From Flavobacterium sp. 5 (lineage in GTDB: Bacteria; Bacteroidota; Bacteroidia; Flavobacteriales; Flavobacteriaceae): DNA of 64,000 nt. A program made the translations under genes and the position numbers. Location: assembly GCF_002813295.1 (NCBI RefSeq), contig NZ_PHUE01000001.1, positions 3,038,001 to 3,102,000 of the forward strand, read 5' to 3'. The notes below the pieces were generated by a model. The model had not been told where the DNA came from. It saw only the letters and a list, made by a program, of their open reading frames with translations, and ran no database searches. Every line of letters begins with the position of its first letter. The first letter of the stretch is position 1. This document shows, piece by piece, positions 15,910-52,164 of the stretch.

Positions 15910-17064
15910 ATGTATTATTTTTTAATTTTTCTTTTTCTATGTCTAGCCTGCTATGCCTCTATTTCTATCGATGGGAATAGGATTTCAAGGTTGAATTATT
16001 TTATTGTATTTCTTTTATTTTGGTTGACTTCGGGCTTGCGTTTTGAAACAGGGATGGATTATTTTGCATACGAAAATATTTATAATGTTACAAATTCATT
16101 TGGGGAAATTGTAAAGTATGGTAGAGTTTCTGAAATAGGTGCTGAGCCTGGTTACTTGTTCTTGAATTCATTGTTTAGAACCTTAGGAACTGAAGTTAAT
16201 ATTATGTTTTTATTTATTTCATTGTTAACAACTTTGATGTTGTTTAATTCTTTAAAACTTTATTTAAATAAATATAAGTATTTTGTTTTATTAACCTATT
16301 TTTCATTTGTTTATTTTACACTTGATATGAGTGGGGTTCGACAAGCTATTGCTGTAAATATTTTTATTTTTTCATTACGATATGTTCATGATAAAAAGAA
16401 GATTAAGTATTTTGCGTGCATTATTTTAGCTAGTTTCTTTCATACTTCTGCTTTGATAGGGCTGATTTTGTATTGGTTGTTTAATAAAAAGTTAAATACA
16501 TTATTTATTATTGGCTCTACTTTGTTTGGCTTACTGATAATTGCATTGCAAATACCTATAGTTAATATAATTATTGATAATTTTTTATCTCGATTTATTC
16601 CAGCAGGAGCGTTATTTAAACTTTTATATTATTCATCAAATGACAAGCCTTGGGGTTTAAATATAAAAGTCATTTTTAATGTTATTGTATTATTTGTATT
16701 ACTATATAATAGAACAGTATTGAGTAATCGGTTTTCTTATTTTAATATAATTCTAAATTCTTTGTTTTTTTATATTTTCTTACGTGAAATACTATGGGAA
16801 TCAATAAATATAAATAGTAGATTGAATTTTTATTTTATATCAGGTCTGATAATGGGTTTTCCTTTATTAATTGATATTGGGGAGAGAAAATATTATAAAT
16901 TAAGTGTTTTTGCATCAATAATTTTAGTTTGCTTTTATCAATGCAGTGAGTTTTTTATATATAGGAGCGCTGCAAATCCGTATCAAAACTATGTTGTTTA
17001 TAAAGTTTTTGAATTGGACAGTACTGGGAAAGAACGTTTTTTGGAGGAAGCAAATAAACAATAA
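15910..17064 (+). CDS. EpsG/Wzy-like O-antigen polymerase
   Basis: A 384-residue polytopic membrane protein with about 10 hydrophobic helices. The short motif LTSGLRFETGMDYFAYENIY after the first helices is the pattern of EpsG-family polymerases (R...G.DY..Y). A second marker is DMSGVRQAIAVNIFIFSLR. It would join undecaprenyl-linked repeats on the periplasmic face and is the best Wzy candidate of region A, partnered with the Wzx upstream. Confidence 0.8.
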   Translation: MYYFLIFLFLCLACYASISIDGNRISRLNYFIVFLLFWLTSGLRFETGMDYFAYENIYNVTNSFGEIVKYGRVSEIGAEPGYLFLNSLFRTLGTEVNIMFLFISLLTTLMLFNSLKLYLNKYKYFVLLTYFSFVYFTLDMSGVRQAIAVNIFIFSLRYVHDKKKIKYFACIILASFFHTSALIGLILYWLFNKKLNTLFIIGSTLFGLLIIALQIPIVNIIIDNFLSRFIPAGALFKLLYYSSNDKPWGLNIKVIFNVIVLFVLLYNRTVLSNRFSYFNIILNSLFFYIFLREILWESININSRLNFYFISGLIMGFPLLIDIGERKYYKLSVFASIILVCFYQCSEFFIYRSAANPYQNYVVYKVFELDSTGKERFLEEANKQ

Positions 17065-26278: not shown

Positions 26279-28240
26279 ATGCCTTATAATATGCTTAAAA
26301 ACTCCATATACGCTGGAATTTTTTCTAGAGATAATCTGAAATTAAGTATCCGTAATTTGAGTTATTTGCCTAGGTGGATTATTGTAATGATTGATTTGTC
26401 AGTTTTGATAATTACATTTTTTTTCACCTTACTTATTTTTAGAGGGACGGGTTTAAGATATATTCTTACTTCACATGACGTTTTTTTTACGTCTTGTTTT
26501 TTTGGAATTAATGTTTTCTTTTTTTGGATATTTCGAACTTATTCGGGGATTATTAGACACTCATCTTATATTGATGCTGTGAAGCTTTTGTTTTCACAAA
26601 TTTCAGTTTTGATCGTATTCTTGATCTTTAATTTTGCTTATGAGTTATTATACGATGAACGAGTATTTTTGACTACTGCATTTTTTATCAATGTAGTACT
26701 TTCTTTTTGCGGTTTATTTTTATATCGTGTTGTTGTTAAACAAACTTTTGAATTATATCTATCTGAAAAAAATACAACTAAATTAATCCGAACCGTTATT
26801 TATGGTACAGATGCGAATGCTATTTCGGTAGCCAATGCATTAAAATTTGAAACTCCTACTCGTTTTAAAATCGTAGGTTTTGTTGATAGAAATAATCAAA
26901 ATGCATCTAAGAGGATGTTAGATTTACCCATATTAGTTCAAAAGAAAAAATTACCTTCTTTAATGCGTTCAGTAGGTGCCGAGGCAGTTATTATGGCAGA
27001 TAAGAGTATAAGTAAAGAAGAGCAATTGATTGTTGTAGATCAATGTTTAGAGTTTAATTACAGAGTTTATACTGTGCCTTTGATTACCGACTGGGAAAAC
27101 CAAAAAGAGATTTCTCAAAAGGTAAAGAATATTCAAATTGAAGATTTATTAGGGAGAAAACCAATTGTTTTGGATAATAAATCTATTTCGAAACAATTAA
27201 AAGATAAAACTGTTTTAATCTCAGGAGCAGCTGGTTCTATCGGAAGTGAAATAGTTAGACAAGTATTAACATTCAATCCAAAGAGAGTCATTATTTTAGA
27301 TCAAGCCGAAACGCCGTTGCATCATTTAAGTCTTGAATTGGAAAGTTCATTTCCAAAATCAAAAATTAGAAATGTTATTGCTGATGTTAGGAATAAAGAA
27401 GTCATGAATAGGGTTTTTAAAACGTATAAGCCACAAGTTGTTTATCATGCAGCAGCCTATAAGCATGTGCCTTTAATGGAAGAAAATCCATCAGAAGCTA
27501 TTTTGACTAATATTATGGGAACTAAAAATTTAGCAGATTTGTCTTGTGAATATGGGGTCGTAAAATTTGTTATGGTTTCAACAGATAAGGCGGTAAACCC
27601 TAGTAATGTTATGGGAGCCAGCAAAAGAATTGCTGAAAAATACGTTCAATCTTTGCAAATAAAGACCCAGAGAGAGAATAAGATCAATGCAACAAAATTT
27701 ATTACTACTCGTTTTGGAAATGTTTTGGGGTCTAATGGTTCTGTTGTACCATTATTTACCAAACAAATTGCCAATGGAGGTCCCGTAACAATTACGCATC
27801 CAGATATCATTCGTTATTTTATGACCATTCCAGAAGCTTGTCAGTTGGTTCTAGAGGCTGGCGCAATGGGTAATGGAGGTGAAATTTATATTTTCGACAT
27901 GGGTAAGCCTGTTCGTATTTTAGATTTGGCCAAAAAGATGATTAAATTGGCTGGGTTTATTCCAGATAGAGATATTAAGATAGAGGTTGTTGGATTACGT
28001 CCAGGAGAAAAATTATATGAAGAATTATTGAATGATACAGCAAAGACTGTCCCTACTTACCATGAAAAAATCATGATTGCTCAAGAAATTCAAGATGAAT
28101 TTGAAAGTTTACATGGAGATATTGATGAATTGATCGGGATAGCTAATTTCTTTGATAATGATGATATAGTTGCCAAAATGAAAGTCATAGTCCCTGAGTT
28201 TAAGAGTATGAATTCAACTTTTGAGATTTTAGATAAATAA
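26279..28240 (+). CDS. WbpM/CapD-like UDP-HexNAc 4,6-dehydratase, membrane-bound
   Basis: A 653-residue protein. There are four N-terminal transmembrane helices (about residues 33-150), a first nucleotide-binding fold (about 170-240), and a catalytic SDR domain from about residue 310. The latter holds SGAAGSIGSE (315-324), VSTDKAVNPSNVMGASKR (433-450) and RFGNVLGSNGSV. As in WbpM, the expected catalytic tyrosine is methionine (M445-x3-K449). It converts UDP-GlcNAc to its 4-keto-6-deoxy form, matching the upstream reductase and WbpL-like gene. A terminator follows. Confidence 0.9.
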   Translation: MPYNMLKNSIYAGIFSRDNLKLSIRNLSYLPRWIIVMIDLSVLIITFFFTLLIFRGTGLRYILTSHDVFFTSCFFGINVFFFWIFRTYSGIIRHSSYIDAVKLLFSQISVLIVFLIFNFAYELLYDERVFLTTAFFINVVLSFCGLFLYRVVVKQTFELYLSEKNTTKLIRTVIYGTDANAISVANALKFETPTRFKIVGFVDRNNQNASKRMLDLPILVQKKKLPSLMRSVGAEAVIMADKSISKEEQLIVVDQCLEFNYRVYTVPLITDWENQKEISQKVKNIQIEDLLGRKPIVLDNKSISKQLKDKTVLISGAAGSIGSEIVRQVLTFNPKRVIILDQAETPLHHLSLELESSFPKSKIRNVIADVRNKEVMNRVFKTYKPQVVYHAAAYKHVPLMEENPSEAILTNIMGTKNLADLSCEYGVVKFVMVSTDKAVNPSNVMGASKRIAEKYVQSLQIKTQRENKINATKFITTRFGNVLGSNGSVVPLFTKQIANGGPVTITHPDIIRYFMTIPEACQLVLEAGAMGNGGEIYIFDMGKPVRILDLAKKMIKLAGFIPDRDIKIEVVGLRPGEKLYEELLNDTAKTVPTYHEKIMIAQEIQDEFESLHGDIDELIGIANFFDNDDIVAKMKVIVPEFKSMNSTFEILDK

Positions 28241-28263
28241 AATTTTAAATAACTACTAAAAGA

Positions 28264-28298
28264 AAAGGTTTACAAGATTGTTCTTGTGAACCTTTTTT
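28264..28298 (+). terminator. Rho-independent terminator closing region A
   Basis: AAAGGTTTACAAGA (28264-28277) pairs with TCTTGTGAACCTTT (28282-28295) with one G-U wobble, around a 4-base TTGT loop. The T-run at the end of the stem continues to 28298. It lies 24 bases after the dehydratase stop and is the clearest intrinsic terminator in the window. It probably marks the end of a long first transcription unit. Confidence 0.85.
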
Positions 28299-28482
28299 GA
28301 TTGCGATTGAATTATTGAAGTTGTAAAAACGATGAGTCTTTCTTTCAACCTTTACATTTTAAGTAGCTCTTTTTTTGAGACAATAATTCTATGATTTTGA
28401 AATATCTTACAAAATATAATAATATATAAAATAATTTGACGCAAAGAGATCGCGTTATGATGTTTTCTTATAAATAAAAAAA

Positions 28483-29271
28483 ATGAATGAATTACTTGAA
28501 ATAGCTATAAATGCTGCGGTGTCCGCTGGTGCTGAAATTATGAATATTTATTCCAAGGATTTTGAAATTTCTTTTAAATCAGATCATTCTCCACTTACAG
28601 TAGCAGATGAAAGAGCTAATGCTATTATAAATTCTATATTAATTCCTACTAAGATTCCAATAATAAGTGAAGAGAATAAGCAAATTAATTTTGAAGATAG
28701 AAAGAGCTTTGAAAGTTGCTGGATGATTGATCCATTGGATGGAACCAAGGAATTTATAAAGAGAAATGGAGAATTTACTGTTAATATTGCATTAATAAAA
28801 AATATGCGGCCAGTTTTGGGAGTGATTTATGTGCCTGTAACCAAAACGTTGTACTATGCTGTTGTTCAGGATAACAAAGCGTATAAGATTGATTTGAGTA
28901 GTCATTTTTTTGCAAATAAAATGAAAGGACAGTCTCAGCTTTTAGTTCCTAGTTTGTCAAGAGAAAATGAAGTCATAATAGTTGCAAGTCGTTCTCATCT
29001 GAATTCTGAAACTGAATTGTATATTGACGATTTAACTCAATTGGGTAAAAAAGTTTCTTTGGTTTCAAGAGGCAGCTCTTTAAAATTTTGTTTACTAGCA
29101 GATGGAAAAGCAAATATTTATCCTAGATTTGCGCCAACAATGGAATGGGACACTGCCGCGGGTCATGCGATTTGTAACGCTGTTGGCTTAAAGGTCATGC
29201 AGATTGATTTAGAAGAGGAGCTGAAATATAATAAAGAAAGCTTACTAAATCCTTTTTTTGTAGTTAAATAA
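28483..29271 (+). CDS. cysQ: 3'(2'),5'-bisphosphate nucleotidase CysQ
   Basis: A 262-residue inositol-monophosphatase-fold enzyme that hydrolyses PAP to AMP. PAP is the by-product of PAPS-dependent sulfotransferases and PAPS reductase. SDHSPLTVADERAN, PIISEE, the metal-binding DPLDGTKEF (83-91) and EWDTAAGHAI near the C-terminus are the family motifs. It lies in a fresh transcription unit after the terminator and 6 bases before cysC, and a sulfotransferase gene is 3.5 kb downstream. Confidence 0.9.
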   Translation: MNELLEIAINAAVSAGAEIMNIYSKDFEISFKSDHSPLTVADERANAIINSILIPTKIPIISEENKQINFEDRKSFESCWMIDPLDGTKEFIKRNGEFTVNIALIKNMRPVLGVIYVPVTKTLYYAVVQDNKAYKIDLSSHFFANKMKGQSQLLVPSLSRENEVIIVASRSHLNSETELYIDDLTQLGKKVSLVSRGSSLKFCLLADGKANIYPRFAPTMEWDTAAGHAICNAVGLKVMQIDLEEELKYNKESLLNPFFVVK

Positions 29272-29277
29272 TAGTTG

Positions 29278-29874
29278 ATGTTGATGGAAAAATCAAATTT
29301 AGTTCAGTCCTATACTATAGGGAGAAAGGATCGAGAGGCAAAGAATGGACATCGGTCTTTTTTAATTTGGTTTACTGGACTTTCAGGTTCAGGAAAATCG
29401 ACTATTGCTAATTTACTTGAGACGAAATTGTATCAACAAGATTTTCATACCTATACACTTGATGGTGATAATTTAAGGAATGGATTAAATAAAGAGCTTG
29501 CTTTTACTGAAGAAGGACGTAATGAAAATTTGAGACGTACTGCCGAGGTTGCCAAATTATTTGTTGATGCAGGCACTATTGTTATCGGCGCTTTTATTTC
29601 GCCAACGGTAGTCGTACGTGAATTAGTTAAGAATATTGTTGGATGCGAAAATTATGTTGAAGTTTTTGTTAATACTCCATTAGCAATTTGCGAACAGAGA
29701 GATATTAAAGGATTATATAAAAAGGCTCGTACGGGAGAAATTAAAAATTTTACAGGAATTAGTTCACCTTATGAGAACCCCGTAAAACCTGATATTATTA
29801 TACATACAATTGAAGAATCTCCAGAACAAGCAGTAGAAAAAATAATGGGTATTATTAAAAAAAGATTGTATTAA
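29278..29874 (+). CDS. cysC: Adenylylsulfate kinase CysC
   Basis: A 198-residue kinase that phosphorylates APS to PAPS, the universal sulfate donor. Walker A GLSGSGKST is at residues 34-42, with TLDGDNLRNGLN, RRTAEVAKLF, GAFISP and FTGISSPYE. The ATG at 29278 is used, though 29284 is equally possible. cysD/cysN (ATP sulfurylase) are not in the window, so APS must come from elsewhere. Pairing with cysQ and a nearby sulfotransferase suggests PAPS made for glycan sulfation. Confidence 0.93.
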   Translation: MLMEKSNLVQSYTIGRKDREAKNGHRSFLIWFTGLSGSGKSTIANLLETKLYQQDFHTYTLDGDNLRNGLNKELAFTEEGRNENLRRTAEVAKLFVDAGTIVIGAFISPTVVVRELVKNIVGCENYVEVFVNTPLAICEQRDIKGLYKKARTGEIKNFTGISSPYENPVKPDIIIHTIEESPEQAVEKIMGIIKKRLY

Positions 29875-30005
29875 TAAAGAACATACTTGTATGTTTTGAA
29901 ATCTTACTTTTTAATTTCAGAAAACGTAACTTGAATAAGTATTTTGAGTAAGTTGGATAGAAATAAACGAAAAGTAAAATGGATTATACAGAAAGAAAAA
30001 TTTAA

Positions 30006-30848
30006 ATGAATTTAGAAAAACATATTTATACCAGTTCCAACAATTATAGTTTTAGGAACATTCTAAAAGCTAGTTTAAAGGGATATAGAGATTCTTTTTA
30101 TTTAGCAAAACAATTAGCAAAGCGAGACATACAGGCGCAATATCGACAATCTTTTTTGGGTATTTTTTGGGCTATTTTCCCTTTATTAATTAACTCTTTA
30201 GTTTGGATTTTTTTGCAATCATCAGGAACAATCAAAGTGACAACAACTAATATTCCTTATCCCGCTTTTGTTTTGATAGGAACAACTTTATGGGGTATTA
30301 TAGGAGAATGTATCAATCTGACTTCGGCAAGTGTTAATGCCAACCAAAGTATTATTACTAAAATTAATTTTGATAAAGAGGCTTTAATTACATTAGGGAT
30401 ATTAAAGTTTTTATTTAATTTTTTTATTAAAATTGGACTAATAATACTCTTTTTGATTTTCTTTAAAATTGTTCCTACGATAGAAATTCTTTTTTTTATC
30501 CCTCTTTTGTTTTTGACTATTGTATTTTTTGTGGCTGTTGGAACTTTGTTGATGCCAATAAGTTTACTTTATACCGACATTAGTCGTTTGATTCCTATTG
30601 GACTCCAGTTTTTGATGTATGCGACTCCTGTAGTTTATGCTATGCCATCTAATGGAATAATGCGTAAGATAATGCTGTTAAACCCTTTGAGTTATATTAT
30701 TACCGATTTGCGTAATGTACTAACTGGTTATAATATAGAAAATCCTGTCTTCTGGGGTGTAGGGATTTTGGTAACAACAATTTTGAGCATATTAGCTTTA
30801 ATTATTTATAGAGTTTCGATGCCAATATTAACTGAAAGAATGAGTTAA
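30006..30848 (+). CDS. Wzm-type polysaccharide ABC transporter permease
   Basis: A 280-residue ABC-2 family permease with six predicted membrane helices. KRDIQAQYRQSFLGIFWAIF, a conserved amphipathic segment before the first helix, is typical of Wzm/KpsM/TagG proteins that export complete undecaprenyl-linked glycans. The ATPase gene starts 2 bases after its stop. This is a second export route next to the Wzx pathway. Confidence 0.9.
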   Translation: MNLEKHIYTSSNNYSFRNILKASLKGYRDSFYLAKQLAKRDIQAQYRQSFLGIFWAIFPLLINSLVWIFLQSSGTIKVTTTNIPYPAFVLIGTTLWGIIGECINLTSASVNANQSIITKINFDKEALITLGILKFLFNFFIKIGLIILFLIFFKIVPTIEILFFIPLLFLTIVFFVAVGTLLMPISLLYTDISRLIPIGLQFLMYATPVVYAMPSNGIMRKIMLLNPLSYIITDLRNVLTGYNIENPVFWGVGILVTTILSILALIIYRVSMPILTERMS

Positions 30849-30850
30849 TT

Positions 30851-32056
30851 ATGGGAGAAGTATTGATAAAAGTAGATCACGTTTCTAAGAAATTTGCCAA
30901 AGGTCTCAAAAAAAGTTTGCTTTATGGTTTAAGCGATGTTTTTAGCGGTATTATAAGAAGAAAACAAGACAAGTCGTTACGAAAAGATGAGTTTTGGGCT
31001 GTAAGTAATATTAGTTTTGAAGTACGTCGTGGCGAATGTTTAGGGCTTATAGGTCATAATGGGGCAGGTAAAAGTACTCTGCTTAAAATATTAAATGGCT
31101 TGATTGCACCCGATGAAGGTAGTGTAACCATGTATGGTAAGGTAGGTGCTTTGATAGAATTAGGAGCAGGCTTTAATCCGATACTTACAGGTCGCGAAAA
31201 TATCTATAATAACGCTGCTATCATAGGCTTTAGCAAGCAAGAAATTAAAGACAAGTTTGATGCTATTGTTGCCTTTGCAGAGATAGAAGAATTTATAGAT
31301 ATGCCTGTACAAAATTATAGTTCGGGAATGAAGGTACGTTTAGGTTTTGCTATTGCGGCACAAATGGAACCTGATGTATTGATTATCGATGAGGTTTTAG
31401 CAGTTGGTGATTTAGGATTTATCCTGAAATGTTTTAAAAGAATAGATACTATTTTACCTAATACAGCTATTGTTTTTGTTTCTCACGCAATGCCGATGGT
31501 ATCACGTATTTGTAACCAAATTGTTTTAATGGATAAAGGAGAATCCGAATTTCAAGGCAAAGAAGTGGGCAAAGGAATTGATTTTTATTATAGTCGATTT
31601 TTAGATAATGAATCTAATATTGCTTTTGATGATGGTACTTTTGAAATGTTAGAAGCAAAAGGATTAAATATAAATAATAATGAAAAAGGGATTGCTCAAA
31701 TAAAATGGGGAGAACCACTAAAGCTTTATTTTAAAATTAGACAAAATCGAGAAATTGAGATGCCTATTTTTATAATCGTGATTTATGATAAGGAACAACG
31801 TGAAGTGGCATATATTGATCATAGTAATCAAAATGAGTTGTTTTTTAAAGATGGTCTTATAGAATTTGAGATGTTACTAGAAAAAATACAACTGTCAAAA
31901 GGGTTTTATACTTTAGATATTTCTATAAATAAAAAACAAACAAGGGAACCATATCTAAGAATAAAAAAAGTTTTAATAATACAGGTTTTGCATGAAAGTG
32001 AAATTTTTCCTTCTTTTTTGTTAGATTGTTCTTTTAAAAATAGTTATAATAATTAA
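30851..32056 (+). CDS. Wzt-type ABC transporter ATPase with C-terminal extension
   Basis: A 401-residue protein. The nucleotide-binding domain spans about residues 1-245, with Walker A GHNGAGKS (68-75), the ABC signature YSSGMKVRLGFA, and Walker B VLIIDEVLAVGD. A further ~150 residues form a beta-rich C-terminal region (IKWGEPLKLYFKI, FYTLDISIN) resembling Wzt-C domains, which in some O-antigen exporters recognise the modified non-reducing end of the glycan. Two methyltransferases and a sulfotransferase next to it could supply such an end group. Confidence 0.9.
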   Translation: MGEVLIKVDHVSKKFAKGLKKSLLYGLSDVFSGIIRRKQDKSLRKDEFWAVSNISFEVRRGECLGLIGHNGAGKSTLLKILNGLIAPDEGSVTMYGKVGALIELGAGFNPILTGRENIYNNAAIIGFSKQEIKDKFDAIVAFAEIEEFIDMPVQNYSSGMKVRLGFAIAAQMEPDVLIIDEVLAVGDLGFILKCFKRIDTILPNTAIVFVSHAMPMVSRICNQIVLMDKGESEFQGKEVGKGIDFYYSRFLDNESNIAFDDGTFEMLEAKGLNINNNEKGIAQIKWGEPLKLYFKIRQNREIEMPIFIIVIYDKEQREVAYIDHSNQNELFFKDGLIEFEMLLEKIQLSKGFYTLDISINKKQTREPYLRIKKVLIIQVLHESEIFPSFLLDCSFKNSYNN

Positions 32057-32070
32057 TCTTAATAAAAGTG

Positions 32071-32772
32071 ATGGACATTGAAAATATAATTGGTAACTCT
32101 AAAGATAGATTACAGCTTTGGACTTCTTTTGTAAAACACAAAGGATTTAAAAATATAGTTGAGTTAGGTGTTTATAGAGGTGAATTTGCTGAAAATATTC
32201 TTTTGAATTGCGATTCTATAGAGAAATATTACATGATTGATCCTTGGAGAAAGTTGAAAGAATGGAATAAACCAGCTAATACAGAAGATGAAATATTTGA
32301 AGATTATTATAATGAAACCTTAAAGAAGACTGAATTTGTTCGTAATAAGAGGATTATTTTAAGAGGTAAAACTCAAGAAATGCATCAAGAAATTAATAAT
32401 GATTCTTTAGATTTTGCTTATATAGATGGAGATCATACGCTAAAGGGAATTACAGTTGATTTAATAGCTATATGGGATAAGATTAAGTCTAATGGTTTTA
32501 TAGCTGGAGATGATTTTTGTTCAAGCGTTTGGCAACATGATAAAACATTTGAGCCAACATTTGTATTTCCTTTTGCTGTCTATTTTGCCGAGGCTAAAAA
32601 TGTTAAAATATACGCATTGCCTTTTAATCAATTTTTGATATCAAAAGGGAGTAAAGGATATGAGCTTATTGATTTAACTAACGGTAAGTATAATGATTTA
32701 AGTGTTTTAAATCAATTGAAGGTACAATTGCCGAAAAAGAGAAATACATTTCTATCTAATTTTTTTAAATAA
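32071..32772 (+). CDS. Class I SAM-dependent methyltransferase
   Basis: A 233-residue methyltransferase of the Methyltransf_24-like type. The SAM-binding motif VELGVYRGEFAENIL is near residue 30, an acidic residue follows in YYMIDPW, and the DFAYIDGDHTLKGITVDL block is typical. No export signal or membrane helix. It lies between the ABC exporter and the sulfotransferase, so glycan methylation, possibly chain capping, is the likely role. The ATG at 32071 is preferred over the adjacent GTG at 32068. Confidence 0.8.
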   Translation: MDIENIIGNSKDRLQLWTSFVKHKGFKNIVELGVYRGEFAENILLNCDSIEKYYMIDPWRKLKEWNKPANTEDEIFEDYYNETLKKTEFVRNKRIILRGKTQEMHQEINNDSLDFAYIDGDHTLKGITVDLIAIWDKIKSNGFIAGDDFCSSVWQHDKTFEPTFVFPFAVYFAEAKNVKIYALPFNQFLISKGSKGYELIDLTNGKYNDLSVLNQLKVQLPKKRNTFLSNFFK

Positions 32773-32774
32773 TA

Positions 32775-33554
32775 ATGAATAATATTTTAATCTTAGGTTC
32801 TGGAAGAAGTGGAACGAGTATGTTAACCGGAATACTTGTAAAATCAGGTTTTCATTTAGGTGAAAATTTTGAATATTTGAAGAAAGATAAGGCAAATCCA
32901 AAAGGTTATTTTGAAGATTACGAAGTAAATACAGTTAACGAAGATATATTAAAAGAAAATTTAATTTCAATACCTGAAACATTAAGGAAATGGATTTTCC
33001 CCTCTTTTACTTTTTATAGAGCGAGATGGTTAGCAGTAATTCCAAAAGGGAAAAAAATTAAAACAACGAGTTCTATAGATAATAGAATAGAAGTGTTAAT
33101 TAATAAACCTTCTTTTTGTTATAAAGACCCTCGTTTTAGTTATACATTGCCTATTTGGAAGAAACTTTTTAAAAAGAATAATATAGCAGCAAAATATTTG
33201 GTTGTTTATAGAGAGCCTTTTAAAACAGCAAATAGCATTGTTAGAGAGTGTGAAGAGAATAAAGCTTTGCATCCTTTAAAAATGACTAGTGAAAGAGCTT
33301 TAAAAGTTTGGGAATCGATGTATTCGCACATACTTGAAAATTATGAAAAAGATATTCAAAAAGAAAATTGGATGTTTGTTCATTTCAATCAATTATTTTC
33401 GTTAGAAGTTCTTGAAAAAATAGAGGAATTTATAGGAGGCAGTATTGATAAACAGTTCCCTGAAAAACAGTTGTCTAGGGCAGAGGATTTGGGGAATGAA
33501 TTAAGTCCAAATTTGTCTGGGATATATAATCAATTGAAAAAATATTCTTTTTAA
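32775..33554 (+). CDS. PAPS-dependent sulfotransferase family protein
   Basis: A 259-residue protein. The N-terminal P-loop-like 5'-phosphosulfate-binding motif GSGRSGTSML (8-17) follows a hydrophobic strand. A second site, YLVVYREPFKTANSIVRE, carries the R-x-x-x-x-x-x-x-S element that binds the 3'-phosphate of PAPS. CYKDPRF is also typical. It probably transfers sulfate to a sugar before export. The gene lies 2 bases after the methyltransferase and within 4 kb of cysQ and cysC. Other P-loop sugar kinases are possible but fit the second motif less well. Confidence 0.75.
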   Translation: MNNILILGSGRSGTSMLTGILVKSGFHLGENFEYLKKDKANPKGYFEDYEVNTVNEDILKENLISIPETLRKWIFPSFTFYRARWLAVIPKGKKIKTTSSIDNRIEVLINKPSFCYKDPRFSYTLPIWKKLFKKNNIAAKYLVVYREPFKTANSIVRECEENKALHPLKMTSERALKVWESMYSHILENYEKDIQKENWMFVHFNQLFSLEVLEKIEEFIGGSIDKQFPEKQLSRAEDLGNELSPNLSGIYNQLKKYSF

Positions 33555-33556
33555 TA

Positions 33557-34666
33557 ATGAAAAAAGTTCTATTCTTATCACATGATGCCTCAAGGACAGG
33601 AGCGCCAATTTTATTATTAAACTTGGCCAAATTGTTGTTGTCTTTTAACGAATTTGAAATACATTTTCTTTTAAAAAAAGGCGGTGTTTTAGAAAATAAT
33701 TTTAGAGAATTGGCAACAAGTTATTGTTTGGAACAACAGAAAAAAACAAAGTTTGATTTTATTAAGAATAAATTATTTAAGACAAAATCATTATTAGAAG
33801 ACAAGGAATTTTTGAATCAATACCATTGTATCGTTTCTAATACAATAACCAACGGTGATATTTTAGGAAAGATAAGAACTCATTATAAAGGACAAATAAT
33901 AAGTTATATTCACGAATTAGAAGTAGCGAGTAAAACCTATACTACTGCTAATAGAATTGAGATAGTGATAAAAAATTCAGATCAGTTTTGGGTTCCTAGT
34001 GCTTTGGTAAAAAAATTTTTACATCGAGAATTTAATGTTAAAAATGATATAATTGCAGTAATGCCCTCATATATTGAAAGTAAAAATAGTTTAGATACTC
34101 ATAGAAATAAAGAAATTCAGAACAGTTTTGTTGTTGGTGGATGTGGTACTATTGATTGGCGAAAAGGTGCTGATTTGTTTTTACAAGTAGCTAATGACTT
34201 GTTTTTGAAACGTCCCAATGCTTCTGTTGTATTTAAATGGAAAGGAGCAAATAATGGAATTGAATTAATGAGATTGGAATATCAAATTAAAATGACAAAT
34301 CTAATAGGGAAAGTTTTTTTTGAATCTGCTTCCTCTGATTTAGATTCTTTTTATCAAGAAATTGATTTGTTCTTATTAACTTCTAGGGAAGATCCTTATC
34401 CGTTGGTTATATTAGAAGCAGCTCAATTTGCTATACCTTCTCTTTGTTTTGATACGGTTTGCGGTAGTATTGACTTTATAAAAAATAGTGATGGAGGAGT
34501 TGTAGTTCCTTTTTTAGACATATCGGCTTTAAGCGATTCTATTTTGTCTTTTTATGATAATTCAAATTATAGAATTCAAAAAGGAATAAATGCCAAGCAA
34601 TTTATGTTGAATACACATTCTAATAAAGAATATGTTTATTCAGAATTTAAAAAAGCTATTAACTAA
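33557..34666 (+). CDS. Glycosyltransferase family 4
   Basis: A 369-residue GT-B enzyme. The N-terminus, VLFLSHDASRTGAPILLLNLAKLL, is the pattern of transferases acting on lipid-linked glycans. IISYIHELEVASKTY ends the acceptor side. The donor domain starts at VVGGCGTIDWRKGADLFLQV, and the EX7E segment is TSREDPYPLVILEAAQ. It starts 2 bases after the sulfotransferase stop. Confidence 0.87.
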   Translation: MKKVLFLSHDASRTGAPILLLNLAKLLLSFNEFEIHFLLKKGGVLENNFRELATSYCLEQQKKTKFDFIKNKLFKTKSLLEDKEFLNQYHCIVSNTITNGDILGKIRTHYKGQIISYIHELEVASKTYTTANRIEIVIKNSDQFWVPSALVKKFLHREFNVKNDIIAVMPSYIESKNSLDTHRNKEIQNSFVVGGCGTIDWRKGADLFLQVANDLFLKRPNASVVFKWKGANNGIELMRLEYQIKMTNLIGKVFFESASSDLDSFYQEIDLFLLTSREDPYPLVILEAAQFAIPSLCFDTVCGSIDFIKNSDGGVVVPFLDISALSDSILSFYDNSNYRIQKGINAKQFMLNTHSNKEYVYSEFKKAIN

Positions 34667-34679
34667 TTAAAATAAGTAA

Positions 34680-35462
34680 GTGAAAAATAAAATTAAAAAA
34701 TATATTAGAGAAAAAATAATAGCAATTTATGAAACTAGGTTTGCGACTTTTTTTTTTAAACAAAAAGGATTTTGCCCTTGTTGTGAGCAAGATACTTTAT
34801 TTATTGCAAGAAACTCATGGTTAAGGGATCATTTTAAATGTACTAATTGTGGTTGCATTCCCCGAGAGCGTGCATTAATGAAAGTTATAAAAGAATACTA
34901 TCCTAATTGGGAAACATTAGCTATTCATGAATCATCTCCAGGAAATAGGGGACATAGCAAATTACTTAGAGAAAAAGCCCAAAATTATACAGAAACACAA
35001 TTTTTTGGGAATACAAATTTGGGAGATTATGTAAATGGTGTACGCAATGAAGATTTAGAACAACAAACATTTGATGATGCAATGTTTGATATTGTGGTAA
35101 CTTCCGATGTTATGGAACATATCTACAATCCAGAAAAAGCTTTTAGCGAAATACAACGTACATTAAAATCTGGAGGAGCTCATATTTTTTCAGTACCAAT
35201 TATAAATAAGCATAAGGCTACACAGCGTTGGGCTAAGAAAGGTTCTGATGGAGAACCTGTTTTTTTGTTTGAACCTGAATGGCATGGAAATCCAATTGAT
35301 AGTAAAGGATCACCTGTAACTTTTCATTGGGGATATGATATTAAAGATATTATTAAAGAATATACGGCAGATGAATGCGAAATTATTTATATAGATGACT
35401 TGAATTATGGTATTAGAGCAGAGTATATAGAAATTGTAGTTCAAAAAAAGAATGTTAAATAG
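34680..35462 (+). CDS. SAM-dependent methyltransferase with N-terminal four-cysteine cluster
   Basis: A 260-residue protein in two parts. Residues 32-57 hold CPCC (C32, C34, C35) and CTNC (C54, C57), a probable zinc ribbon. A class I methyltransferase fold follows, with TFDDAMFDIVVTSDVMEHIYNPEKAF as the acidic-loop region. The usual G-x-G-x-G motif is weak (ESSPGNRGHS), so SAM binding is inferred from fold order and not from a perfect motif. The start is GTG at 34680, and the stop abuts the ATG of the WbsX gene. Confidence 0.75.
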   Translation: MKNKIKKYIREKIIAIYETRFATFFFKQKGFCPCCEQDTLFIARNSWLRDHFKCTNCGCIPRERALMKVIKEYYPNWETLAIHESSPGNRGHSKLLREKAQNYTETQFFGNTNLGDYVNGVRNEDLEQQTFDDAMFDIVVTSDVMEHIYNPEKAFSEIQRTLKSGGAHIFSVPIINKHKATQRWAKKGSDGEPVFLFEPEWHGNPIDSKGSPVTFHWGYDIKDIIKEYTADECEIIYIDDLNYGIRAEYIEIVVQKKNVK

Positions 35463-36539
35463 ATGAAAATTAAACCGATAGCATTTGTATTGCCACAATT
35501 TCATCCCATTCCAGAAAATGATCAATGGTGGGGAAAAGGTTTTACGGAGTGGACTAATGTCACTAAAGCACAACCTTTATTTGAGGGGCACTATCAACCT
35601 CAGTTGCCCACAGATTTAGGATTCTATGATTTACGTTTACCTGAGGCTAGGCAAGCTCAGGCTGATTTAGCTCAGGCATACGGAATTCAAGGTTTTTGTT
35701 ATTATCATTATTGGTTTAACGGTAAAAGACTGTTAGAGCAACCCATTGATGGAATGCTACAGCAAAAGGATTTGAATATGCCTTTTATGTTATGTTGGGC
35801 TAATGAAAATTGGACACGCCGATGGGACGGAAATGAGGATGATGTACTCATGAAACAAGACTATAATTTAGAAGATGATAAGGAGCACATGCGTTGGCTA
35901 TGTGAAAATGTATTTTCTGATTCCCGTTATATAAAGGTTGATAATAAACCTGTATTTGTACTTTACAGGCACAGTTTGTTACCAGATATAAAAAAGACAG
36001 CAGCAATTTGGAGAGAAATAGCTATTAATGAATTTGGTTTTCCAGATTTGTATCTGTGTATTACAGATAGTTTTGGAGAGACAAGCGTACCTCAAAAATT
36101 AGGTTTTGATGCTGCAATTGAGTTTTCTCCTTTGGCAGTCATTAAAAATAAATTAAAAATAAATCAAAAGAAAGGACTGTTTGATTTCTTCAAAAAGAAA
36201 TCTAAATCTTCGCCAATTGATTTAAGAGATTTTGAACTTGGTGTTAAAAATTGCATTGAAAAAAAGATTCCAGATTATAAATTCTATCGTTGTGTTACAC
36301 CGTCATGGGATAATACAGCAAGGAAAAAAGAAAGGGGAGCAGTGGCTATAGGTAGTAGTCCAGAGTTGTATTATAAGTGGTTAGATTATATAGTTAAGCA
36401 TTTTATACCTTACTCAGTTGAAGAGAATTTTATTTTTATTAATGCAATGAACGAATGGGCTGAAGGAAATCATTTAGAACCCTGTATTAAGTATGGTACA
36501 GCTTATCTAGAAGCAACTAAAAAAGCATTAGAAAATTGA
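35463..36539 (+). CDS. WbsX-like glycan biosynthesis protein (GH99-related), second copy
   Basis: A 358-residue paralogue of the gene at 14813-15883, sharing FHPIPENDQWWGKGFTEWTN, GHYQPQLPTDLGFYDLR, CWANENWTRRWDG and NEWAEGNHLEP. It carries an insertion with KKGLFDFFKKKSKSS in the middle. The RRWDG after WANENW is present here but replaced in the other copy (KGFAHG), suggesting the two act on different sugars. The stop overlaps the TTG start of the next gene as TTGA. Confidence 0.8.
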   Translation: MKIKPIAFVLPQFHPIPENDQWWGKGFTEWTNVTKAQPLFEGHYQPQLPTDLGFYDLRLPEARQAQADLAQAYGIQGFCYYHYWFNGKRLLEQPIDGMLQQKDLNMPFMLCWANENWTRRWDGNEDDVLMKQDYNLEDDKEHMRWLCENVFSDSRYIKVDNKPVFVLYRHSLLPDIKKTAAIWREIAINEFGFPDLYLCITDSFGETSVPQKLGFDAAIEFSPLAVIKNKLKINQKKGLFDFFKKKSKSSPIDLRDFELGVKNCIEKKIPDYKFYRCVTPSWDNTARKKERGAVAIGSSPELYYKWLDYIVKHFIPYSVEENFIFINAMNEWAEGNHLEPCIKYGTAYLEATKKALEN

Positions 36540-48658: not shown

Positions 48659-49309
48659 ATGATTAGATTATTCTTATATAAAAAATGGAATCATTATAAA
48701 CGTTGTAAGTTTTTAAATCAGCGTAAAAAAGAAGGAACTGAAATAAGTTCTAAAACAACTGGTTATTGGAATGTTTTTTTTGAAGGGAAAAACAAGATTC
48801 CCGAGAGATGTCAGTTTTTAGGAAACAATATCAGAATAGGATATGCTACTACTTTGGGAGTAAATAATCTATTGTCAGGAAATGTAAATGTGGGCAAATA
48901 TTGCCAGTTTGGAGCTGATGTAGCGCTACATGCTAATAACCATCCCATTTCTTCGATGACGACTTATATTAATAAGAATTTATTCTTAGGTGAGCTTAAA
49001 GCATTAAGACAAGAAAAAAAAGTTGTTATTGGAAATGATGTCTGGATTGGTCACGGTGTAATTATAGTGGGGAATATCACGATTGGGAATGGTGCTATAA
49101 TTGCAGCAGGAAGTGTCGTTACTAAAGATGTTCTGCCTTATACTATTGTCGCTGGAGTATCGGCCAAACTAATACGAAAACGCTATGCAGATTCTATTAT
49201 TAAAGAAATAGAAGCACTTAAATGGTGGGACAAAAGTGAAGTTGAATTAGAACAGTTAAAACCTTTATTTTTTAAAGATTTTACTGATAAAATTAGTGTT
49301 TATGATTAA
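48659..49309 (+). CDS. Hexapeptide-repeat acetyltransferase (intact)
   Basis: A 216-residue left-handed beta-helix protein. FLGNNIRIGYATTLG and VNVGKYCQFGADVALHANNH carry the catalytic-type histidine. VVIGNDVWIGHGVIIVGNITIGNG and VVTKDVLPYTIVAGVSAKLI close the fold. The helical tail (IKEIEALKWW) is typical of CatB/NeuO-like xenobiotic-type acetyltransferases. It overlaps neuB by 8 bases, so it may acetylate the nonulosonic acid or its precursor. The ATG at 48659 is used over a TTG at 48653. Confidence 0.85.
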   Translation: MIRLFLYKKWNHYKRCKFLNQRKKEGTEISSKTTGYWNVFFEGKNKIPERCQFLGNNIRIGYATTLGVNNLLSGNVNVGKYCQFGADVALHANNHPISSMTTYINKNLFLGELKALRQEKKVVIGNDVWIGHGVIIVGNITIGNGAIIAAGSVVTKDVLPYTIVAGVSAKLIRKRYADSIIKEIEALKWWDKSEVELEQLKPLFFKDFTDKISVYD

Positions 49310-50312
49310 TAAAACACCCTATATTATCGCAGAAATAGGCCAGGCACACGAAGGGAGTCTAGGTATTTTATATTCCTATATCGATGCTATTGCTCAAACT
49401 GGTGTAGATGCGGTGAAATTTCAAATGCACATTGCTGAAGCAGAAAGTAGCGAGTATGAACCTTTTCGTGTCAAGTTTTCGTTAGAAGATAAGACCAGAT
49501 TTGACTATTGGAAACGAATGGGGTTTTCTTTAGAACAATGGGCAGGAATTAAAACATATTGTGAGAGTTTAGGACTTGATTTTATTTGTTCTCCCTTTAG
49601 TAATTTGGCAGTCGATTGGCTGGAAAAAATAGGTTTAGAGCAATATAAAATAGGCTCGGGAGAAGTTAATAATTTCTTGATTTTAGAAAAAATTGCTAAA
49701 ACTAGAAAACCCGTGATTTTGTCTTCAGGAATGAGTTCTTACGATGAATTGGATGAAACTGTGGCATTTTTGAAAGAAAGAAATGTAGAATTTTCTATTT
49801 TGCAATGTACAACCTCATATCCTACTCAGCCTAAAAGTTTTGGTTTAAACGTTATTCAGGAATTACAAAAAAGGTATAATGTACCGATAGGTTTTTCCGA
49901 TCATTCAGCACGTATAGAAACTTGTATTGCTGCGACCGTTCTTGGCGCTGAAATACTTGAGTTTCATGTTGTTTTTGATAGACAGATTTTTGGTCCAGAT
50001 TCTAAATCTTCCTTGACAATTTCGGAAACCAAAGATTTGGTTATTGCTGTTCGCAATATCAAAGAAGCTTTGGATAATCCAATTGATAAAAATTCGAATG
50101 AAAATTTTACAGTTTTAAAACAAATATTTGAAAAATCTTTAGCTATAAATAAAACGCTTTCAAAAGGACACATCATAACTTTTGATGACCTGGAAGCTAA
50201 AAAACCAAAAGGATGTGGAATTGATGCAGCAAAATTTAGGGATGTTGTAGGCAAAACACTTACTTTTGACAAAAGCCAATGGGATTTTTTAAAGGAAGAA
50301 GACATACAATGA
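49302..50312 (+). CDS. neuB: NeuB-family nonulosonic acid synthase
   Basis: A 336-residue enzyme that condenses an N-acetylmannosamine-type sugar with phosphoenolpyruvate. The TIM-barrel part has AEIGQAHEG (10-18), VDAVKFQMH, FICSPFS, YKIGSGEVNN, LQCTTSYPT and GFSDHS with the catalytic histidine. The C-terminal SAF (antifreeze-like) domain is present (SLAINKTLSKGHIITFDDL). AEIGQAHEG replaces the AEIG.NH.G found in many sialic-acid synthases, suggesting a different NeuB subgroup. Start ATG at 49302; neuC overlaps by 4 bases. Confidence 0.9.
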   Translation: MINKTPYIIAEIGQAHEGSLGILYSYIDAIAQTGVDAVKFQMHIAEAESSEYEPFRVKFSLEDKTRFDYWKRMGFSLEQWAGIKTYCESLGLDFICSPFSNLAVDWLEKIGLEQYKIGSGEVNNFLILEKIAKTRKPVILSSGMSSYDELDETVAFLKERNVEFSILQCTTSYPTQPKSFGLNVIQELQKRYNVPIGFSDHSARIETCIAATVLGAEILEFHVVFDRQIFGPDSKSSLTISETKDLVIAVRNIKEALDNPIDKNSNENFTVLKQIFEKSLAINKTLSKGHIITFDDLEAKKPKGCGIDAAKFRDVVGKTLTFDKSQWDFLKEEDIQ

Positions 50313-51466
50313 ATAAACGGAAAATAGCTGTTGTAATTACAGCACGTCCATCTTATAGCCGGGTTAAAACAGTTTTGTCAGCGATTGAGACACATCCTGA
50401 TTTAGAATTACAGTTGATTGTTGCTGCATCGGCTCTCTTGGATCGATACGGCTCTGCAGTCAATTATATAGAAAAAGACGGCTTTATTATTGCTGCGAAG
50501 GTATTTAATGTACTGGAAGGGGAAAATTTAACTGCTGCAGCTAAAACCACTGGAATTGGAATTTTGGAGCTTTCTACTGTTTTTGATAATTTAAAACCCG
50601 ATATTGTAGTTACAGTTGCCGATCGTTTTGAAACTATGGCAACGGCAATTGCAGCTTCTTATATGAATATTCCGCTAGCACATATTCAAGGTGGTGAAGT
50701 TACTGGCAACATTGACGAAAAAGTGCGTCATGCTATTACCAAATTAGCAGATTATCATTTTGTAGCTTCCGAAAATGCTAAAGAAAGAGTGATTAAATTA
50801 GGAGAAAATCCTGATTTTGTTTTCAATACGGGTTGCCCTTCAATAGATATTGCATCGGAAGTGGCTAAAATACAAGGTCTAAATTTTAATCCATATCAAA
50901 AATATGGAGGAGTTGGAGCAGAACCTGATTTGTCCAGTAATTATTTAGTAGTGATGCAGCATCCAGTAACAACAGAATATCAAAATTCTAGAAAACATAT
51001 AGAAGAAACATTAGAAGCGGTAAATGAATTGGATATTCCAACTTTGTGGTTTTGGCCAAACGTTGATGCTGGTGCTGATGGAACTTCTACAGGAATTCGA
51101 GCGTTTCGTGAACATCATAAGTTGAAAAATGTTCACTTTTTTAAAAATATGGAAGGCGATGATTTTCTAGTTTTACTTAATAACGCTAAAGCATTAATAG
51201 GGAATTCCAGTGTTGGAATTAGAGAATGTGCTTACCTTGGTGTTCCTGTTATTAATATTGGTTCGAGACAAAATAAACGAGACAGAGGAAATAATGTAAT
51301 TGACGTGAACTACGATAAAAACGAAATAATTGCTGCAATTCATACTATTTTAAAAAATGGAAAATCCAAAATTTCATCTGTATATGGTGGAGGAAATGCT
51401 GGTTCTATTATTGCTGATTTGTTAATAAAAGTGCCTTTGCAGTTTCATAAAACAATTATGTATTAA
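50309..51466 (+). CDS. neuC: NeuC-family hydrolysing UDP-HexNAc 2-epimerase
   Basis: A 385-residue GT-B-like epimerase that releases a ManNAc-type sugar for NeuB. VVITARPSYSRVKTVLSAI at the N-terminus, VVTVADRFETMATAIAASY, HIQGGEVTGNIDEKVRHAITKLADYHF, and the C-terminal IGNSSVGIRECAYLGVPVINIG are family motifs. The ATG at 50309 overlaps the neuB stop (ATGA). A 6-deoxy substrate as used by LegG is possible, but the aminotransferase required for legionaminic acid is not seen. Confidence 0.9.
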   Translation: MNKRKIAVVITARPSYSRVKTVLSAIETHPDLELQLIVAASALLDRYGSAVNYIEKDGFIIAAKVFNVLEGENLTAAAKTTGIGILELSTVFDNLKPDIVVTVADRFETMATAIAASYMNIPLAHIQGGEVTGNIDEKVRHAITKLADYHFVASENAKERVIKLGENPDFVFNTGCPSIDIASEVAKIQGLNFNPYQKYGGVGAEPDLSSNYLVVMQHPVTTEYQNSRKHIEETLEAVNELDIPTLWFWPNVDAGADGTSTGIRAFREHHKLKNVHFFKNMEGDDFLVLLNNAKALIGNSSVGIRECAYLGVPVINIGSRQNKRDRGNNVIDVNYDKNEIIAAIHTILKNGKSKISSVYGGGNAGSIIADLLIKVPLQFHKTIMY

Positions 51467-52164
51467 TGAGAGTTTTAGCAATTATTCCGGCAAGAGGAGG
51501 AAGTAAAGGTGTTCCTGGAAAAAACATCAAATTATTAGGGAGCAAGCCTTTGATTGCTCATGCAATTGAATGTGCAAAAAAATGCAATAAAGTCACGAGA
51601 ACAATTGTTTCCACTGATTCAGATGAAATTATAAATATTGCACTGAATTTTGATGCAGAAGTCATCAAGAGACCCGCTAGCTTGGCAGAGGATACTAGTA
51701 ATGTGATAACGGCTGTTGTAGATGTTTATCAAAAAATTGAACAAGAGTTTGATTTAATTGTTCTATTGCAACCAACATCTCCTCTTAGAACTTCTATTGA
51801 TTTAGATAACATAATAGCAATGTTTGAAAAAGATAAATTTATTGATGGGGTCATAAGTGTAGTTCCTTTAGAAGATTGTCACCCAGCAAGAATGTATAAT
51901 TTGGAAAAAGATAACAAGCTAACTTCTTTTTTAAATGAGGGAGAAACCAAACTTAGACAAGATTTAAAACCTGTGTATTACAGAAACGGATGTTTTTATG
52001 TAGTACGGACGAAAGCCTTTTTTAAAGAAAAATCTTTTATGGTTGAAAATAAAAAAGCATATGTGATGGACAGTAATTGGTTAGCAAATATAGATAGTCC
52101 AAGAGATTTTAAAATAGCTGAAGTGTTGTATGAAGATTGGAAAAATGAAAATAGTTGTAGTTGA
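51466..52164 (+). CDS. neuA: NeuA-family CMP-nonulosonic acid synthetase
   Basis: A 232-residue cytidylyltransferase that activates the nonulosonic acid as CMP-sugar. IIPARGGSKGVPGKNIKLLG (5-24) is the CTP-binding motif, followed by VSTDSDEI, RPASLAEDTSN, LLQPTSPLRT and a terminal NIDSPRDFKIAE. The ATG shares one base with the neuC stop. The downstream dehydrogenase begins 20 bases before its stop. Confidence 0.92.
   Translation: MRVLAIIPARGGSKGVPGKNIKLLGSKPLIAHAIECAKKCNKVTRTIVSTDSDEIINIALNFDAEVIKRPASLAEDTSNVITAVVDVYQKIEQEFDLIVLLQPTSPLRTSIDLDNIIAMFEKDKFIDGVISVVPLEDCHPARMYNLEKDNKLTSFLNEGETKLRQDLKPVYYRNGCFYVVRTKAFFKEKSFMVENKKAYVMDSNWLANIDSPRDFKIAEVLYEDWKNENSCS

Follow-up and report, generated by a model that had tools for sequence, protein, structure and literature searches.

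Few sulfated surface glycans of bacteria have known genes, and the Cobetia and Vibrio gene clusters are marine. Cobetia marina is a gammaproteobacterium. The structure of the sulfated polysaccharide of its strain KMM 1449 has been determined, and the polysaccharide cluster contains genes for 3'-phosphoadenosine 5'-phosphosulfate (PAPS) synthesis, cysQ and sulfotransferase genes together with an ATP-binding cassette (ABC) exporter, the cassette comprising cysN/C, cysD, ATP sulfurylase and sulfate permease and the exporter being of the Group III Kps type (PMC11766843). For Vibrio sp. KMM 8419, whose sulfated capsule has also been determined, the accessible text describes cysC and sulfotransferases in the polysaccharide cluster, with second copies of cysC, cysN and cysD and a Kps exporter, does not have cysQ among the named genes, and calls PAPS genes plus sulfotransferases a hallmark of sulfated polysaccharide synthesis (PMC11641403). 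The locus described here lies in a 64,000-nucleotide stretch (positions 3038001-3102000, hereafter the window) of the 4.97-Mb single-contig genome of Flavobacterium sp. 5, where PAPS synthesis, a predicted sulfotransferase and a Wzm/Wzt ABC exporter are encoded in one cluster, the ATP sulfurylase being encoded elsewhere in the genome.

The kind of locus is already known from the Cobetia and Vibrio capsules. The present locus differs from the C. marina cluster by its Wzm/Wzt exporter with a Wzt_C domain, by a cassette without CysD (ATP sulfurylase is a housekeeping one) and by its phylum, Bacteroidota, and from the Vibrio cluster in that its adenosine 5'-phosphosulfate (APS) kinase is the sole one of the genome. 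A Wzt with a C-terminal carbohydrate-binding domain is shared with the cap-type export of Aquifex aeolicus and Escherichia coli O9a (WbdD), where the domain reads the chain end. Known caps consist of a methyl group, (methyl)phosphate or a special sugar, those of these two organisms being methyl and methylphosphate (PMC9445017, PMC3482155). In the window, a methyltransferase and the sulfotransferase are encoded near the transporter, with a putative cap role. In the wbsalmo cluster of Aeromonas salmonicida A450, the excerpted text places ORF19, with a sulfotransferase domain, directly after wzt (ORF18), a likeness by domain label only, and does not have cysC or cysQ among the named genes (PMC4483657). 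A sulfated O-polysaccharide of Pseudoalteromonas marinoglutinosa is cited in one paper (PMC3210612), and there are reports of sulfated exopolymers in other phyla, e.g. Pontiella (PMC7356697). No report of a sulfated surface glycan in the genus Flavobacterium was found in the open-access literature searched, which is a weak negative.

The cysQ-to-sulfotransferase cluster

On the + strand, from about 28.5 to 37.5 kb of the window, the order is cysQ, cysC, wzm, wzt, a Methyltransf_24 gene, the sulfotransferase gene, a glycosyltransferase family 4 (GT4) gene, a Methyltransf_11 gene, a WbsX-like gene and a GT2 gene (the last labelled by eye). The earlier note had reported cysC, a sulfotransferase-like gene and cysQ on one strand within 5 kb around Wzm/Wzt, and this arrangement was recovered in full, with the three sulfation genes within 28483-33554. 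APS kinase, CysQ and Sulfotransfer_3 each had one match over cut-off genome-wide; the clustering is not ascribed to chance, since random placement would bring two of the three within 5 kb of the third with a probability of about 4e-6.

The reading preferred here, with a probability of roughly 0.8, is a sulfation branch devoted to a surface glycan, by which PAPS is made and used, the remaining 3'-phosphoadenosine 5'-phosphate (PAP) is cleared, and the chain is exported by Wzm/Wzt. APS would be made by the housekeeping ATP sulfurylase CysDN, encoded 305 kb away, and converted to PAPS by CysC of the operon; in the cytosol, the sulfotransferase would use PAPS to sulfate a hydroxyl group of the lipid-linked glycan, leftover PAP would be hydrolysed by CysQ, and the finished chain would be exported by Wzm/Wzt. 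In the ABC route chains are completed in the cytosol before export, and because of this, together with the site of PAPS synthesis, sulfation is placed in the cytosol before export. We infer that CysC, CysQ and the sulfotransferase are active as enzymes and, from operon and synteny, that sulfate is added to the Wzm/Wzt glycan and not to the Wzx/Wzy-type one encoded upstream. The sulfated surface glycan proposed by the earlier note is supported by the gene identities, the sulfotransferase fold, the single APS kinase, the type of CysH and the co-occurrence in the genus, all of which were obtained by computation.

The product of 32775-33554 (+ strand), formerly the weakest gene call, is now firmly predicted to be a PAPS-dependent sulfotransferase of the Sulfotransfer_3 superfamily. 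It was narrowly above the Pfam cut-offs (29.7 vs 27 for Sulfotransfer_3 and 23.5 vs 22 for Sulfotransfer_1), none of the NCBIfam models was passed, and a sequence search of the PDB gave no match up to an expectation value (E) of 10, so that the identity is carried by fold comparison: the structure model had a predicted local distance difference test score (pLDDT) of 94.7, and the first 41 structural matches listed were all sulfotransferases. The sequences GSGRSGTS and R-x7-S, which we take to be the PAPS 5'-loop and the 3'-phosphate motif, respectively, are kept; in an alignment of 70 rows R146 was invariant, and S154 and loop residues 8-15 were conserved at 90% or more. The assignment made by the earlier note thus agrees with fold and motifs. 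A P-loop kinase, which it had named as the alternative, was ruled out by the sulfotransferase fold matches, the PAPS motifs and the absent Walker-A lysine.

cysQ (28483-29271, + strand) encodes a 3'(2'),5'-bisphosphate nucleotidase for PAP removal, which scored 257 bits with TIGR01331 (cut-off 228.8) and stayed below the other CysQ model, NF008182 (222.9 < 379). cysC (29275-29874, + strand) encodes the APS kinase for PAPS synthesis (TIGR00455, 237 > 138.7; Pfam APS_kinase, 214 bits), an ATG a few bases inside being as likely a start as the listed TTG. In an alignment with the kinase domain of human PAPSS1, the P-loop, DGDN, FISP and KGLYKKAR were all kept, and this CysC was the sole APS kinase match of the genome. 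The exporter consists of the ABC-2 permease Wzm (30006-30848, + strand; PF01061, 38.1 bits), whose sole NCBIfam match, galactan Wzm/RfbD, was far under cut-off, and the ATPase Wzt (30851-32056, + strand; PF00005 (ABC_tran), 83 bits) with a C-terminal Wzt_C carbohydrate-binding domain (PF14524, 40.5 > 30.4). The best PDB match of Wzt was 8dku, a 404-aa ABC transporter chain, presumably Aquifex Wzt, aligned over 45-363, past the ATPase domain. Between Wzt and the sulfotransferase a methyltransferase of the Methyltransf_24 class is encoded (32068-32772, + strand; PF13578, 51 bits).

The gap between cysQ and cysC is 3 nt and that between cysC and wzm 131 nt, and the gaps from wzm to the GT4 gene are 2-11 nt (0-13 nt as far as the WbsX-like gene). 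An AT-rich hairpin of 17 bp with a terminal T-run (28261-28298, + strand), a likely terminator, folded at -21.3 kcal/mol (z -6.7; 0 of 200 shuffles equally stable) and likely sets cysQ apart from the gene upstream (26279-28240); cysQ therefore probably starts a transcription unit. The hairpin was not among the sites listed by a G+C-based scan. Within 27801-34000, a Bacteroidota-type promoter pattern gave 0 matches, and sigma-70-type matches showed no excess (60 vs a shuffle mean of 62.4).

Sulfate assimilation, genus survey and synteny

Two matches of PF01507 (CysH/CysD family) were found in the genome, in neighbouring genes for CysH and CysD at 2.763 Mb. Next to them come a gene for a CysN that has no kinase domain and one resembling sulfite/nitrite reductase genes. 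The earlier note had argued for glycan sulfation from the lack of cysD, cysN and a reductase gene in the window; the lack is real, but the argument is weak, because cysH, cysD and cysN exist 305 kb from the glycan locus. Its corrected form is stronger, because CysH is nearest to APS reductases and no need of PAPS is then expected. CysH passed the APS-reductase model TIGR02055 (247 > 235.3) and failed the PAPS-reductase model TIGR02057 (144 < 254.2); its nearest solved structure was the APS reductase 2goy (155 bits), compared with 125 bits for the highest-scoring chain that bears the name PAPS reductase, 57 bits for 1sur and 65 bits for 2o8v. The motifs CC, CxxC and ECGLH, which we take as marks of the iron-sulfur type, are present. 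Cysteine synthesis should thus need no PAPS, which seems to be without other evident use in the genome. The locus would accordingly be a genetically clean case from a genus of Bacteroidota: cysC, cysQ and the sulfotransferase gene are predicted to be deletable without touching cysteine synthesis, since PAPS seems otherwise unused.

For the genus survey 150 genomes (G000-G149, the own genome included as G000) were used. A CysC-type APS kinase (E 1e-62 or better) was present in eight (G000, G002, G051, G085, G114, G119, G133 and G134); the Pfam APS-kinase cut-off was passed by 29, four of them marginal only, and a second, more distant kinase class (E about 1e-43 to 5e-38) occurred in 18, G114 among them. 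Sulfotransfer_3 was over cut-off in 6/150 genomes and CysQ in the identical six; Sulfotransfer_1 was over cut-off in five, all among the eight CysC genomes, so that one or the other sulfotransferase family was found in 7/8 CysC-type genomes vs 0/142 others. The co-occurrence of the three genes, a check suggested in the earlier note, was therefore strongly positive in the genus, and CysQ or the CysC-type kinase may mark sulfated products there.

A sulfotransferase was encoded in the CysC surroundings (up to 20 kb) in six of the eight genomes (G000, G002, G051, G085, G119 and G133). In the fragmented assembly of G134 the sulfotransferases were on contigs other than that of CysC, and in G114 the CysC neighbour was a Galactose-3-O-sulfotransferase-like protein under cut-off (24.3 < 27). 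The order CysQ-CysC-sulfotransferase-Wzm-Wzt was found inside 10 kb in G002 (locus L038). G119 and G133 (1-2 contigs, 100 and 99% complete) carry CysQ-DUF2061-CysC-CysD-CysN with sulfotransferases, their sole PF01507 match is the cassette's own CysD, and they appear to make PAPS without any CysH. PF01507 was matched in 97/150 genomes and twice or more in 82, of which 76 were without the CysC-type kinase; the second class was present in 17 of these 76, and 59 had neither class; G047 and G131, which belong to the 59, each have a borderline match (21-22 bits) within a far longer frame.

Beyond the genus, 46 loci encoding relatives of the sulfotransferase were obtained from one scan of genome contigs. 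Wzm/Wzt was upstream of the sulfotransferase on the same strand in at least 12/46, a lower bound, as many of the loci end at contig ends; weak Wzt labels (49-61 bits: L078, L081, L090 and the second one in L092) were excluded from this count. The linked loci, some of them close kin, include cyanobacteria, metagenome-assembled genomes (MAGs) of Aminicenantes and a Verrucomicrobia MAG. In L063, a Bacteroidota MAG, CysC, CysQ, Wzm, Wzt, sulfotransferase, GT4, Methyltransf_11, WbsX and GT2 are kept together, with the CysC/CysQ order swapped and Methyltransf_24 absent as compared with the window; L064 (Robertkochia) has Wzm, Wzt, sulfotransferase, GT4, WbsX and GT2 with a second sulfotransferase ahead of Wzm, and L071 (Catalimonadaceae) has Wzm, Wzt, Methyltransf_24 (66.8 bits) and sulfotransferase. 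The order of the GT4, Methyltransf_11 and WbsX-like genes downstream of the sulfotransferase in the window (33557-36539, + strand) is thus that of L063 and, without the methyltransferase, that of L064. In a family-wide survey (alignment A2, up to 6 candidates scored per genome), the sulfotransferase was found in 2/397 genomes, namely the one containing the window and G527, whose locus and L064 read the same. A strong APS kinase match was present in 10 of 12 distinct genomes with a Wzt-linked sulfotransferase (G527 and G545, with identical places, counted once; weak only in the MAGs G551 and G553) vs 11 of 14 controls, and no weight was given to this comparison.

Probable acceptor and possible role of the sulfate

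Several points weigh against a sulfation branch dedicated to the Wzm/Wzt glycan. The genus genomes are related and four of the eight CysC genomes have a cassette type in common; the Fisher values of the co-occurrence (7e-11 for CysQ with Sulfotransfer_3 and 2.7e-11 for the CysC-type kinase with either sulfotransferase family) therefore overstate independence. The kinase survey scored up to 23 first-look candidates per genome, and the sulfotransferase survey covered the two Pfam families Sulfotransfer_3 and Sulfotransfer_1, neither of which was over cut-off in any of the 18 genomes with the second kinase class (0/18), a neighbour under cut-off being present in the four loci examined. CysC was within the flank in just 2/46 sulfotransferase loci (L063 and L078). 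CysH also passed two phosphoadenylyl-sulfate reductase models, NF002537 (263 > 154) and TIGR00434 (176 > 165), and iron-sulfur reductases of its type that accept both APS and PAPS exist, so PAPS may still be used for cysteine synthesis here. CysC serves cysteine synthesis in organisms with a PAPS reductase, and if CysC and CysQ did so in this genome, their location in the glycan operon would be accidental. The resemblance of CysH to APS reductases disfavours this, as does the genus survey, where both APS-kinase classes are absent from 59 of the 82 genomes that match the CysH/CysD family at least twice and where CysQ and CysC track sulfotransferases; a role in cysteine synthesis is considered highly improbable. 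The acceptor is a separate matter: the sulfotransferase could act on a glycan of the Wzx/Wzy type, on lipid A or on a small molecule that is secreted, in which case its placement in the ABC operon would be only positional. A PF01943 flippase-like gene (8937-10466) and an EpsG-family gene (15910-17064) upstream in the window suggest a second glycan, which could be the acceptor, and in two other members of the genus CysC accompanies a sulfotransferase in a lasso-peptide-like cluster (G051) or a sulfotransferase-like gene under cut-off beside a gene that by eye is like those of nonribosomal peptide synthetases (NRPS; G114). The hairpin ahead of cysQ and the close spacing (2-11 nt) of the genes between wzm and the GT4 gene speak for the Wzm/Wzt glycan instead, as does the order Wzm-Wzt-sulfotransferase-GT4-WbsX kept in L063 (with Methyltransf_11 between the last two) and L064, and an acceptor other than this glycan is thought quite unlikely.

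For the Wzm/Wzt glycan as acceptor, the sulfate may be a decoration of the chain or, alone or with a methyl group from the 32068-32772 product, a cap at the non-reducing end that halts elongation and is read by Wzt_C. Sulfate would then join methyl, methylphosphate and special sugars as another chemical class of cap, one shared by several phyla, and a sulfotransferase gene beside wzt would be explained where the repeat unit is without sulfate. The A. salmonicida cluster would fit a terminal sulfate, since a sulfotransferase-domain gene follows wzt there and, according to the authors, the O-antigen structure lacks such a residue (PMC4483657). Besides the same-strand linkage in at least 12/46 loci, the gene steps from Wzt to the sulfotransferase in the 10 loci with called genes were 1, 1, 4, 2, 5, 5, 1, 4, 1 and 4. 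L099 and L100, where genes are unlabelled and tblastn finds Wzm, Wzt and sulfotransferase in both, and the window locus were left out of this test. The sulfotransferase was next after Wzt in four (L063, L064, L092 and L105) and second in one (L071, which repeats the order Wzt-Methyltransf_24-sulfotransferase), and compared with uniform placement the P values were 0.005 for at least four immediately downstream, 0.009 for the summed distance and 0.006 for Wzt always being upstream. Exporter genes often open operons, so the downstream position is weak evidence, and in G002 the sulfotransferase precedes Wzm. The identities of sulfotransferase and Wzt_C did not co-vary after correction for the ATPase domain (55 pairs, 11 loci including the window's; partial r 0.03), the Wzt_C domains show little resemblance across the linked loci (median identity 14%), a second sulfotransferase over cut-off is nearby in L064, L065, L073 and L097, which decoration fits better, and a methyl group by itself could be the cap. 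In the open-access literature searched, no description of sulfate acting as a cap for export was found, a weak negative. Sulfate as the export signal is accordingly held to be unlikely, and the recurring sulfotransferase-after-Wzt layout makes what Wzt_C reads directly testable.

Further loci and neighbouring genes

Sulfatase-family (PF00884) genes lie between Wzt and the sulfotransferase in L074 (8258-9595) and L107 (4010-6040), a possible case of sulfate removal beside sulfate addition. In the CysQ-CysC-CysD-CysN cassettes of the genus, a DUF2061 membrane-protein gene stands between cysQ and cysC (L036, 9197-9625, 142 bits; L037, 6330-6758, 146 bits), and similar frames are present in L039 and L040. 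The second kinase class is encoded in L044 (9784-12724; TIGR00455, 163.8 > 138.7) and also in L043, L045 and L046. Near it, in all four loci, is a gene for a 319-327-aa protein with a Sulfotransfer_3 match under cut-off (20.8-24.3 bits, cut-off 27), joined in L044 by an Asp/Arg beta-hydroxylase-like gene, and these loci possibly represent an undescribed sulfation or modification system.

In G051 (L041, 4001-12030), a lasso-peptide-like cluster includes CysC and a gene of the Sulfotransfer_1 family (89 bits), along with a B2 match (39.2 > 33), PqqD-like and HPr-kinase-like matches under cut-off, an Asn synthase and an MsbA-like ABC transporter. The product may be a sulfated lasso peptide, with PAPS supplied from within the cluster; a putative sulfotransferase is mentioned for lasso clusters of Firmicutes (PMC8498205). 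In G114, CysC and the Galactose-3-O-sulfotransferase-like gene (L042) are near very long genes, NRPS-like by eye, and in a second NRPS-like stretch, also by eye (L047), a 925-aa protein has an APS-kinase-like domain at its end; its neighbour (L047, 7494-8399) matched no Pfam family. In the window itself, nonulosonic acid pathway genes were found in the same glycan locus (49296-52164), i.e. NeuB-like (289 < 400), NeuC (396 > 235.9) and PseF-like (145 < 206).

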